From: Verrucomicrobiota bacterium | GTDB lineage: Bacteria > Verrucomicrobiota > Verrucomicrobiia > Chthoniobacterales > UBA10450 | Direction of reading: 5' to 3' | NCBI GenBank assembly: GCA_902810735.1 | Contig: CADDYX010000004.1 | Span: 1-39,373 of the forward strand | DNA length: 39,373 nt | Shown here: in pieces, positions 31,897 through 39,225 of the stretch | Position numbering within the stretch: position 1 is the first letter of the stretch | How the letters are laid out: each line of letters begins with the position of its first letter | Program-made: the position numbers and the translations under genes | The notes under the pieces: model-generated | What the model was told of the DNA's origin: nothing | Database searches by the model: none | Seen by the model: the letters and a program-made list of their open reading frames with translations, nothing else

Positions 31897-32538
31897 GTGA
31901 AACTAGTAAGAACCTCGGCGCGCGTGCTGTCACCGGATTCAGAACAGGAGGCGGAACAGACGAACGTCTTGTCGTTGACGGAGGCGGTGCTCGGCGGGCT
32001 TAAGCCGCTCGACTCAGTCGATGCCGAGTCGCTCACTCGGCTGCTGCCGTCCGTTTACGATGAGCTGAGGAAGCGCGCGGCGAGTCTACTCCGCGGCGAG
32101 CGGCTCGGCCACACGCTCCAGCCGACCGCATTGGTGCACGAAGCTTACTTGCGACTGGCCGAGCAGGAGAACCTCGGGTTCCAGAACCGCGCGCATTTTC
32201 TGTGCGTCGCTGCGCGGATGATGCGCCGCATTTTAACGAACTACGCGATCGCACGCGGTGCGGCGAAACGCGGTGGCGATAAGATCGTGCGGTTTGCGCT
32301 CGACGAGGCCATCGACTTCGCCGCGCCACGCGATCTGAGCCTCGTCGCGGTGAACGCCGCCCTCGAAGAGCTCGAGAAGCTCGACCCGCGTCAGGCGCAA
32401 ATCGTCGAGCTGCGTTTCTTCGGCGGCATGACGGTGGAAGAGATCGCCGACGCCCTCGGCATTTCACCGCGAACAGTGAAACGCGAGTGGGCGACGGCGA
32501 AACACTGGTTGCGGCGCGAAATCGCAAACGCCGCATAA
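31897..32538 (+). CDS. ECF RNA polymerase sigma factor, TIGR02999 type
   Basis: 213 residues from a GTG start; GTG at 31924 is an alternative. After a 40-residue N-terminal extension, sigma region 2 includes LLPSVYDELRKRAA and the tight HTLQPTALVHEAYLRL segment (about 75-90), a hallmark of the TIGR02999 group in Acidobacteria, Planctomycetes and Verrucomicrobia. Region 4 ends with the helix-turn-helix EEIADALGISPRTVKREWATAKHWLR. The kinase gene starts four bases after its stop. There is no anti-sigma factor beside it. In Vibrio parahaemolyticus an ECF factor (EcfP) is activated by phosphorylation from a neighbouring kinase (PknT); the same logic is possible here. Confidence 0.88.
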   Translation: MKLVRTSARVLSPDSEQEAEQTNVLSLTEAVLGGLKPLDSVDAESLTRLLPSVYDELRKRAASLLRGERLGHTLQPTALVHEAYLRLAEQENLGFQNRAHFLCVAARMMRRILTNYAIARGAAKRGGDKIVRFALDEAIDFAAPRDLSLVAVNAALEELEKLDPRQAQIVELRFFGGMTVEEIADALGISPRTVKREWATAKHWLRREIANAA

Positions 32539-32542
32539 TCGA

Positions 32543-35443
<2,901 letters not shown>

Positions 35444-35471: not shown

Positions 35472-38027
35472 TTACGGCGCGGGCTCGATGGCGCGTGATT
35501 CGATTTGCTCGACGGACGGCTCGTTCTTCCGCACCCAATCGCGGATCGCGTTCACGTCGTCCGGATTGATCGCGGTCGCGCGTTCGGCTGGTGCGGCGGA
35601 ATTTTGCTCTTCAGCGGCCGCGATTTCATGGGGTTTTGCCCGCTTCGCTTTCTTCACGGAAAACTTCCAGTGCCGGCCGAACCGCAGGAGCGCGTAATAC
35701 ATCGTTTTCGCTTCTACGGCCCCGACACCGCTGCAGCGCATCGCGTTGTAAAACATTCGATCGCACTCGGCTGGCGGGCGATTCTGCTTTTCGTAGGCGA
35801 CGTCGTGCAGCACGGAGGCGTTGCGGTAACGCCCTTCGAACGGTCCGCCCATGAAGGTCCAGAGCGCGCGCGGAATCGACGCGCCGTCGACAGTTGAACC
35901 GGCTGGTGCGATCCAGACTTCACCTTTCGGATCGACGTAGCGGAGCTCGTTCAACAGCGTCATCGTCCGACCGTCCGAGTTCCACCGCGTATCCACGGGT
36001 CCGCTGTAGTAACCCCACGGGTGTTTTTGCTGCGCAAAATGCGTCCACGGTGTTTTGTCCGCCGCGCATCCGGACAAGAACGCGCTTGCGCCGATGATCA
36101 ATGCAGCCGCGGCTGCTGCTTCGACGCGCTTCGATTTCGGCTGAGCAACTGGCGGCGAGCCGCCGAGCGGCCGCCGGAATTTCTTCACGTAAAACATCAT
36201 GAACACGCCGCTGACGATGAAGAGCGAGCCGATCCATTTCAGCAGCCAACCGGGATCGCGCAGGATCTGGATCGTGCTCTGGTTCAGGTTTTCCGGGTTC
36301 CAAGAGGCCTGCGACATCTTGAAGGTCAGGCCGGTCCAGGTGCGCCACCATTGCCCGGGAAAACTGAACGGGTGATTCATCCAGCACTGGCCGACCGCCG
36401 TTTCGCCGTCGGCCGTGCTCACTCGAACGGTGCTCTTGAATCCGGCCGGACTGTCGCTGCCTTCATTGCGCTGCACTTCGAACTCGAGTAACTCGAGCGC
36501 GATCGGCAGCGGCACCTGCTTCCAGCCGTATGCGATCTGCACTTCCTGCGGCGAAATCGGAACCGAAATCTGCCAGCCGGCAGGCACCCATTGCTCGAAC
36601 GTGTGGTCACCCTGCTGCACGCGCACTCTGACGCCGTCCGGCAATTCGGCCGCGGCTTTCGGCTGCGCAACGGGCGTGAAATCCATCCACTCCTCCGCGT
36701 GCGGCAGCAAGCGATCGATCGTCAGCTTCCAGTCGGCCCAGCCGGTCGCGAGCGGTTGGTGCAGATCGAGCGTGCCACTCGATTTGCCGGCTTTGCGCGA
36801 CGCGAGCTCATACGTGATCGCGCCATCATCAGCGACATAGAGCGTGAGTTGGTTTGCGGTCGCTTCGCCCGCCTGCGGCATCGCCGGCGCGCCGGTGTGC
36901 GCGTCCTTCGGCGGTTCCACCGGCACGCCAGTGCCGCGCAACGTCACGATTACCGCCGGGTTGTTTGGCTGATCGGTGACGGAGACCGGTTTGCTGTTTT
37001 CGATGCGGAAGTCCGGCCAGTAGTTGTCGATCCGCGCAGTGAATGGCGTGCCTTCAATGGCGACGTCTTTGCCGATATTCGACGCCACATCGAGCGTCGC
37101 GGTTTTGCCTCCGATGTTGAACGTCACCGCCCCTTTGTTGCCGTTGCTCGGCGGCGACAACTGCACCTTGGCGCCTGTGCTTCCGCCTTTCAGCGATCTC
37201 GCGATCTGCTGGTCCGCCGCTTTCGCGAATGCAAAGATCGACTCCTCGATCTCGACTGCGCCCGCCGGACCAGAAGCCGGCGCCGGCGTGACGTGATCAG
37301 CCGCCGGAGCGCGTCCGCGTTTCAGCGTGATGTTCGCCAGGCCCATGCCGAATGTGCCGTGCTGCTGATTGTCGGCGAGCAGCCAACTCTCCAGCTTTTG
37401 GCCCATCATCGCTGTCGCGATCGAGACATGCACGGCTGGTGCGCCGCCCTCCTTCAGCGGCCGCGGATTCAGCTTACCTTCGACCTGCGGCGCGTACTGG
37501 ATGACGCTGAGCCGCGCCCCCGATGCCAGCGCGCCGAGGTCGAGCGGCTTTTGCGGAGTCGGTGGCCGATGGATAAACTCCGCGCGATAACCTTTGACGA
37601 TCCCATCGGTGTCGCGGACGCGCAGCTGGTGTTCGTCGACCAGCAGCCGATTCGCGGGCGCCTCTCCTTTAAAGAGAGTAATCGTGCCTTCGATGCCGAA
37701 GATGCGGCCGATGAGCGAACCGGTGAGCAGCGTGATAATTCCGAGATGCGTGACGAGAAACGCGACGTGGTGTTTTTTCCACGGCCAACGCGACAAGGCC
37801 GAGACGGCGAGGTTCGCCGCCAGCAACACGAGCCAGGCGTTAAACCACGGCGCGCCGTAAATGTAGGCGCGCGCGACTTTGGCATCGAACGTCGACTCGT
37901 AAAGCGTGCCTGCGATCGCGCCGACGATCAGCACCGCAAGCAGCACGACCGCGAGCTTGAGGGACGCGAAAAACTCAAACAGCGCGTTGCGCTGCCATGC
38001 CGGCCGTGTGCTGGATTTCCCACCCAT
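35472..38027 (-). CDS. resB: ResB-type cytochrome c assembly protein fused to a DUF1353 lipoprotein-like domain
   Basis: 851 residues. The N-terminal half is ResB-like: membrane segments around residues 18-45 (FFASLKLAVVLLAVLIVGAIAG), a second at 60-80 and a third near 88-112, then a large outer domain, then a membrane segment near 596-616 (WIGSLFIVSGVFMMFYVKKF). ResB and its partner CcsA/ResC attach haem to c-type cytochromes outside the membrane. From about residue 632 a new hydrophobic stretch ends in FLSGC with Cys654, which looks like a complete lipoprotein signal. It is followed by DUF1353 (GSTVDGASIPRALW, then VLHDVAYEKQN). So an independent lipoprotein seems joined in frame to ResB. 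The upstream cytochrome gene fits the maturation role. No CcsA homologue is in the window. Confidence 0.82.
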   Translation of the reverse strand: MGGKSSTRPAWQRNALFEFFASLKLAVVLLAVLIVGAIAGTLYESTFDAKVARAYIYGAPWFNAWLVLLAANLAVSALSRWPWKKHHVAFLVTHLGIITLLTGSLIGRIFGIEGTITLFKGEAPANRLLVDEHQLRVRDTDGIVKGYRAEFIHRPPTPQKPLDLGALASGARLSVIQYAPQVEGKLNPRPLKEGGAPAVHVSIATAMMGQKLESWLLADNQQHGTFGMGLANITLKRGRAPAADHVTPAPASGPAGAVEIEESIFAFAKAADQQIARSLKGGSTGAKVQLSPPSNGNKGAVTFNIGGKTATLDVASNIGKDVAIEGTPFTARIDNYWPDFRIENSKPVSVTDQPNNPAVIVTLRGTGVPVEPPKDAHTGAPAMPQAGEATANQLTLYVADDGAITYELASRKAGKSSGTLDLHQPLATGWADWKLTIDRLLPHAEEWMDFTPVAQPKAAAELPDGVRVRVQQGDHTFEQWVPAGWQISVPISPQEVQIAYGWKQVPLPIALELLEFEVQRNEGSDSPAGFKSTVRVSTADGETAVGQCWMNHPFSFPGQWWRTWTGLTFKMSQASWNPENLNQSTIQILRDPGWLLKWIGSLFIVSGVFMMFYVKKFRRPLGGSPPVAQPKSKRVEAAAAAALIIGASAFLSGCAADKTPWTHFAQQKHPWGYYSGPVDTRWNSDGRTMTLLNELRYVDPKGEVWIAPAGSTVDGASIPRALWTFMGGPFEGRYRNASVLHDVAYEKQNRPPAECDRMFYNAMRCSGVGAVEAKTMYYALLRFGRHWKFSVKKAKRAKPHEIAAAEEQNSAAPAERATAINPDDVNAIRDWVRKNEPSVEQIESRAIEPAP

Positions 38028-38073: not shown

Positions 38074-39225
38074 TCAGCGCGACCGCTGGGCGAGCGCGAG
38101 GCTGAGCGCCTGCAGGTGCGCCGCGAATTGCGCTGGCTCGAATTGTTCCGGTGGTCGGACGTCATCGGCGAGCGATTTCAGCTCCGTCTCGACGCCGAGG
38201 GACTGCGCAGTGTTTGCTTCCACGGCTGCACTGAGTCGCTGAAGCGCCGGCACGAGCCGCTCCGCGCGACGGGCGAGCAACGTTGCCGGCGTTTCAGGTT
38301 TCGCCGCAAACTCCGCGTCGGTCGCCGCAAGTGACCGCAGCAAGCTGCGCGTCATTTGCTCGTCGAACGGCCAACCCGGTGCACGCCGCGCGAGATCGTC
38401 GGCTGTGCGTTGCATCTCGGCAAAGTCGCTCGCGTTCGCCGCGAATACCGGCGCGTGCTTCGTTGCGCCACTCGTCTCGACACCCACGATTTTCGCCAGC
38501 AACCAGGCTAGCCCGCTCCAGCGGGTCTTCTCGTTTTCGTCATTTGGATGCTGCGCAAGCATCCAGCTCATCTCGCGCAACGCGACGGCCTGGCCGGTGA
38601 GCCACGCGCGCGGGCCAATCCACGCGTCTTCCTCGCGCCAATGTCTCGGCTCGGCTTCCGATTGCCCATCGAGCTCGAATCGCAGCTCCGGATGGCCGGC
38701 GCGGAGCACATCCGGATCGACATTTTGATGGCACGCGACACAGGCATTCGCCCGCACATACAGATTCCGCAGGTCGTGCATTCCGGCGGCAACACGAGTG
38801 CCGTAGGTCCAATCCGATCGCGTGTGGCCGCGCAGCCAGCCAGACGCCGCCCCGTGGCAGTTTTCGCACGAAACCCCTTCGTCCGGGTGCGCGGTCGGCA
38901 ACAGACGAGCGGCGCTGACCGATTGCAGTGGCGAATGGCAGACGGTGCACCGCGCGTCGGTTTGCGCCTGCGCAATCCCGAGCGTCTCCGCCATTCGCGC
39001 CGAGCGCGCGCTGATCAAGACGGCGTAGGCGCGGGAATGAAAATCCTGCTGGCTCCAGGTGATGAATTGGCTGCGCTTCGGCCCGGCGCCGCCGTGACAG
39101 CTCGACGACTTGCAGCCGATCGCGCCAACGAAGCTGCCGCCGCCGTCGATTTGCTGTTGAGTCGGGCGCGCGAAAACGGTGCCCGCGAGAACGAATGAGG
39201 CTGCTAACGTCGCGAGCCGGAGCAC
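38074..39225 (-). CDS. Exported tetraheme c-type cytochrome (cytochrome c554-like)
   Basis: 383 residues from a GTG start. A signal peptide (LRLATLAASFVLAGTVFA) leads into four haem attachment motifs: an unusual CX4CH at 38-44 (CKSSSCH), and standard CXXCH at 93-97 (CTVCH), 120-124 (CENCH) and 162-166 (CVACH). The spacing and the FVGAIGCKSSSCHGG start resemble the cytochrome c554/c' type multihaem proteins. The C-terminal half, from about residue 190, has no haem motif and is helical with many charged residues. It should act as a periplasmic electron carrier or redox enzyme subunit. The ResB fusion gene follows 46 bases downstream on the same strand, so the cytochrome and its haem-insertion factor are likely co-expressed. 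Confidence 0.85.
   Translation of the reverse strand: MLRLATLAASFVLAGTVFARPTQQQIDGGGSFVGAIGCKSSSCHGGAGPKRSQFITWSQQDFHSRAYAVLISARSARMAETLGIAQAQTDARCTVCHSPLQSVSAARLLPTAHPDEGVSCENCHGAASGWLRGHTRSDWTYGTRVAAGMHDLRNLYVRANACVACHQNVDPDVLRAGHPELRFELDGQSEAEPRHWREEDAWIGPRAWLTGQAVALREMSWMLAQHPNDENEKTRWSGLAWLLAKIVGVETSGATKHAPVFAANASDFAEMQRTADDLARRAPGWPFDEQMTRSLLRSLAATDAEFAAKPETPATLLARRAERLVPALQRLSAAVEANTAQSLGVETELKSLADDVRPPEQFEPAQFAAHLQALSLALAQRSR

Follow-up and report, generated by a model that had tools for sequence, protein, structure and literature searches.

A ResB reading frame that continues into a DUF1353 lipoprotein in an uncultured Verrucomicrobiota bacterium: probably a small local gene joining and not a new haem-delivery device

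Does a single frame that runs from the cytochrome c assembly protein ResB into a DUF1353 lipoprotein create a new partner for haem delivery, or does it simply join two neighbouring genes? The frame lies in a stretch of 39,373 nucleotides (the window) that is one entire contig (39 kb) of a metagenome-assembled genome (MAG) of a soil-type, uncultured Verrucomicrobiota bacterium, and the window fusion is known from this one assembly (3.0 Mb, 310 contigs, about 96% complete). The closest named relatives are Chthoniobacterales, Spartobacteria and Udaeobacter MAGs. A sequence-only reading had described ResB fused in one frame to a lipobox and a DUF1353 domain. The assembly confirms this description: the frame is truly open over 851 residues, and both domains score above their Pfam cut-offs (PF05140, ResB, 52.9 bits vs. 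24.6; PF07087, DUF1353, 80 bits vs. 22.5 for residues 689-779). The same search found no CcsA domain (PF01578) in the ORF, and its identification as a ResB-CcsA fusion was rejected for that reason. The features are collected in the table. On the opposite strand (31897-35443, +), by-eye assignment gives a predicted ECF-type sigma factor ORF and, immediately after it, a predicted Ser/Thr kinase whose C-terminal part is TPR-like; both are convergent with the fused gene.

Table. Positions of the fused gene, its parts and its upstream neighbour in the window
Feature	Positions	Strand	Basis or remark
Fused ORF	35472..38027	-	Open-frame reading, 851 aa, ATG to TAA
ResB/CcsB part, residues 1-620 (end approximate)	36168..38027	-	PF05140; three helices at the N-terminus, a large periplasmic region rich in beta structure, one closing helix
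Last ResB transmembrane helix, residues 594-614	36186..36248	-	Hydropathy and model; conserved in free-standing ResB
Basic linker, residues 615-635 (KKFRRPLGGSPPVAQPKSKRV)	36123..36185	-	Corresponds to the cytoplasmic ResB tail, stop-terminated in relatives
Former lipoprotein signal peptide: hydrophobic stretch and lipobox L651-S-G-C654	36066..36122	-	Hydropathy; position as in free-standing homologues
Mature DUF1353 part, residues 655-851	35475..36065	-	PF07087; AlphaFold model, mean pLDDT 79
Putative phospholipase A2 catalytic residues His741-Asp742 ... Asp756	35760..35807	-	Spacing as in TtaP H70/D71/D85
Upstream multihaem c-type cytochrome, Cytochrome_C554-like	38074..39225	-	Profile match; neighbour of resB kept in several relatives (cluster c3)

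The ResB part has the architecture expected of this protein, with three N-terminal helices, a large periplasmic domain and a C-terminal helix. Hydropathy places membrane segments at residues 20-38, 61-79, 88-106 and 594-612, and the AlphaFold model has helices at 23-42, 60-78, 85-110 and 594-614 with a beta region between them. An extra hydrophobic segment (637-655) closes with LSGC, the cysteine being Cys654. His94, located in the membrane helix 85-110, is invariant in 30 sequences; a haem role of membrane-helix histidines is described for CcsBA (PMC6299221). At sites where all the other sequences agree, the window differs in 0 of 139 cases in the ResB part and in 1 of 40 in the DUF1353 part, the latter a conservative change of Ile to Val. 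Judged by this conservation, both halves look functional. The full-length model has pLDDT under 50 for residues 618-677 and says little on the linker or on contacts between the domains.

The same fusion was sought in 83 genomes of the bacterial family and in a genome collection. Within the family, resB precedes DUF1353 on the same strand at 42 distinct loci, and at 40 of them the two are separate genes that have a stop and a start each. The interval from the resB stop to the lipoprotein ATG is mostly between a one-base overlap and about 250 nt. Locus L050 is exceptional in having 3.2 kb there, and a long open frame of about 1,000 codons (L050:8109-11147) occupies the interval. The free-standing DUF1353 lipoproteins beside resB, which the sequence-only reading had suggested looking for, are thus the rule. 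Their N-terminus is a short signal peptide of the ordinary kind, mostly with a lipobox, and this bears out the earlier view that the second hydrophobic stretch of the fused protein is a former lipoprotein signal peptide. In genus g5, certain DUF1353 N-termini (L015, L073, L077, L079) lack the lipobox cysteine (e.g., AAWASDNEP, AAFGADKEQ), which suggests that these proteins have become soluble, or differently cleaved, periplasmic forms.

The sequence-only reading had named separate genes in every relative as a finding that would refute a fusion. The survey comes close to this; however, one other locus, in the MAG G032 (L053), is also fused, at a different point. L010 and L053 are one MAG and were counted as one case. 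There the middle of the last ResB helix is joined straight to the lipoprotein methionine (SLLVVSG/MRVSVLILALLLSGC). Because the join point differs from that in the window, the G032 fusion is either an event of its own or an error of its own. In this frame (L053:5941-8451, the same as L010) a shortened last ResB helix blends into the signal peptide of the lipoprotein, and the topology looks damaged. Matching 'open_frame' values in the genome tables hinted at further fusions, which were rejected because the DNA contains stops. In order-level relatives (L024, L028, L030, L031), resB is followed by ccsA and not by DUF1353. A Spartobacteria MAG (L052:5974-9477) encodes ResB fused to a full CcsA-like protein of about 1,170 aa via a signal-like hydrophobic segment, and loci related to it have resB and ccsA as adjacent genes. 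Read-through of ResB into the next exported or membrane protein has thus occurred with another partner among the relatives.

The DUF1353 family is no longer wholly unknown, given that TtaP, one of its members, is a phospholipase A2 (PLA2) in vitro with the residues H70, D71 and D85 (PMC11525133). The window protein belongs to the same Pfam family and has the His-Asp pair and the Asp at identical spacing; the His/Asp dyad and the Asp beside the His that characterize group XIV-type PLA2s are present as H741, D742 and D756. Unlike TtaP, which has no overt signal sequence, the window's DUF1353 family has a lipoprotein signal as well as an additional helical region at the C-terminus, and PLA2 activity here is putative. 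The His-Asp pair is invariant in 28 diverse DUF1353 proteins, and the third Asp is nearly so in the close family (all but L093). The proteins of L124, L119, L120 and L093 keep His-Asp and have His or Ala in place of the third catalytic-position Asp; they are possible non-enzymatic members.

In hhalign comparisons, a DUF1353 profile of diverse members matched group XIV PLA2 (89%, E 2e-6), whereas the narrow family profile A1 reached a probability of only 4%. The two best PDB matches of the diverse DUF1353 profile are group XIV PLA2s as well, both weak (E 0.075 and 0.41). A first mixed alignment (A2) was left out because its short rows were misplaced. Foldseek and VIA comparisons against solved structures returned no PLA2 and no match for DUF1353; the two folds are expected to share a three-helix core only. 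Phage DUF1353 models matched the DUF1353 part in structure comparison, as expected, and the sole phage family match, phrog_1158, labelled tail assembly chaperone, carries no weight here. Taken together, the TtaP precedent, the kept His-Asp...Asp and the diverse-profile matches make PLA2-like activity of the window domain probable.

How the two parts are joined can be seen in the junction alignment. The window resB tail (FRRPLGG...KSKR) leads into the hydrophobic part of the lipoprotein signal, with no resB stop, spacer or lipoprotein ATG left. The lipobox cysteine is thereby preceded by a basic and then a hydrophobic stretch (KSKR-VEAAAAAALIIGASAFLSGC), and the signal lies about 636 residues into the chain and not at its N-terminus, as in an ordinary lipoprotein. 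With one Glu and six consecutive Ala, this signal peptide is weak-looking. A simple pattern finds a lipobox-like motif at the same place in 40 of 54 homologues, fused or free-standing, so the lipobox is not a chance match; several of the remaining 14 have a near-consensus Cys closing the signal peptide. The basic linker fits the positive-inside rule, given the cytoplasmic end of ResB.

We consider it about an even prospect that a lineage-specific fusion yields one precursor from which both proteins are recovered. The co-directional neighbours resB and the DUF1353 lipoprotein gene would have been joined by a small in-frame change that on balance removed the stop of resB, the spacer and the start of the lipoprotein, and the cell would produce a single precursor. 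The ResB tail would remain cytoplasmic, with its basic residues (KSKR) acting as a positively charged n-region, and the DUF1353 part would be taken across the membrane to the periplasm by the old signal peptide. By known lipoprotein maturation, Lgt would lipidate Cys654 and LspA would cut before it; the internal lipobox is a putative LspA substrate. The products would be ResB with one extra membrane segment and a lipid-anchored DUF1353 protein, much as in the two-gene relatives. ResB would act together with CcsA, encoded at an unlinked site, in System II cytochrome c assembly, and the lipoprotein, a probable periplasm-facing PLA2-like phospholipid hydrolase, would have a separate job.

An assembly or strain-mixture artefact, by which a junction between two genes of the actual genome disappeared from the MAG, is unlikely but still credible. 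The fused state is rare, both cases are MAGs, and the G032 junction, cutting the last ResB helix, looks damaging. However, no obvious repeat or microhomology was found at the window junction, and the join is in frame with helix, basic linker, signal peptide and lipobox all kept. A single missed stop codon, which the sequence-only reading had offered as a possible cause, is ruled out, since stop, spacer and start are jointly gone. A frameshift error was likewise rejected: a one-base shift might end ResB, yet it provides no lipoprotein ATG, there being none in the other two frames across the junction.

That the fusion is real and stays uncut, with the DUF1353 domain tethered to ResB via a fifth helix, appears rather improbable. 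The export topology would be right, with the basic linker inside and the domain outside, and the same-group MAG L052 offers a parallel in its ResB-CcsA fusion. Retention of a perfect lipobox argues against a tether, as do the prevalence of free-standing forms and the lack of any indication of a shared function. Separate production of the lipoprotein by internal initiation is more doubtful still. In-frame start codons do occur near the junction (ATG 36200/36197, GTG 36188, TTG 36101), and a start at GTG 36188 would give MKKFRRP... with a plausible basic n-region. None of the in-frame ATG, GTG or TTG codons at the window junction is preceded by a Shine-Dalgarno-like sequence, however, some 20 residues would make a remarkably long n-region, and the native ATG is gone. 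Because the internal starts lack a ribosome-binding sequence, one precursor is likelier than two translation products.

The sequence-only reading had further supposed that the fusion couples DUF1353 to haem delivery. Adjacency of resB and DUF1353 is indeed kept across most of the family; nonetheless, a joint action of DUF1353 with ResB in haem delivery or cytochrome c assembly is very improbable. In 11 genomes of the family DUF1353 is kept although nothing matches the long ResB; in several, the rest of the neighbourhood (gene clusters c1 and c2) is still in place around DUF1353 and resB is absent. These genomes are MAGs in which single absences may be gaps; in ten loci, other genes stand at the place of resB. 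The partner that co-occurs with ResB is CcsA. A separate contig (C90) encodes a CcsA homologue bearing the WGxxWxWD motif, and the high-scoring CcsA class is present in 7/7 examined genomes with this long ResB and in 0/4 without it. Old as the adjacency is, DUF1353 does not depend on ResB, which weakens the haem idea. The persistence of DUF1353 without this ResB, together with CcsA on another contig, leaves a haem role for DUF1353 unsupported, and the ccsA genes that follow resB in order-level relatives and the PLA2-like residues of DUF1353 also speak against it. Least probable of all is a stable ResB-phospholipase A2 chimera, with the hydrolase tethered at the cytochrome c assembly site and acting, e.g., on lipids around the haem channel.

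Two known systems help to place the single-precursor reading. The Bradyrhizobium japonicum FbcH is a cytochrome b/c1 polyprotein whose internal signal peptide is cut by signal peptidase I. Like FbcH, the window frame would deliver a membrane protein and an exported protein within a single precursor that contains an internal signal peptide; unlike FbcH, with its signal peptidase I and fixed functional pair, it has a lipobox and apparently unrelated partners. A literature search on fbcH and on lipoprotein signals inside a chain gave no useful paper. The second system is CcsBA, the natural ResB-CcsA fusions of Helicobacter, Wolinella, Bacteroides and Campylobacter (PMC6299221). As in CcsBA, the frame of the window ResB carries on into a sequence that elsewhere is a gene of its own, but the CcsBA partner is the haem-handling synthase CcsA, whereas here it is an unrelated lipoprotein, with CcsA encoded elsewhere.

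In general, the fusion is probably a small local joining undone by cutting at the old signal peptide, and not a new haem-delivery device. As a local fusion of two neighbour genes, it is of modest interest, and the useful correction concerns DUF1353. It shows how a two-gene neighbourhood may collapse into one frame with the parts kept in their proper compartments by the old signal peptide, and it would allow the processing of an internal lipobox by LspA to be tested. For the biology of the group, a lipid-anchored DUF1353 protein, predicted to be PLA2-like, emerges as a common envelope protein of soil Chthoniobacterales.
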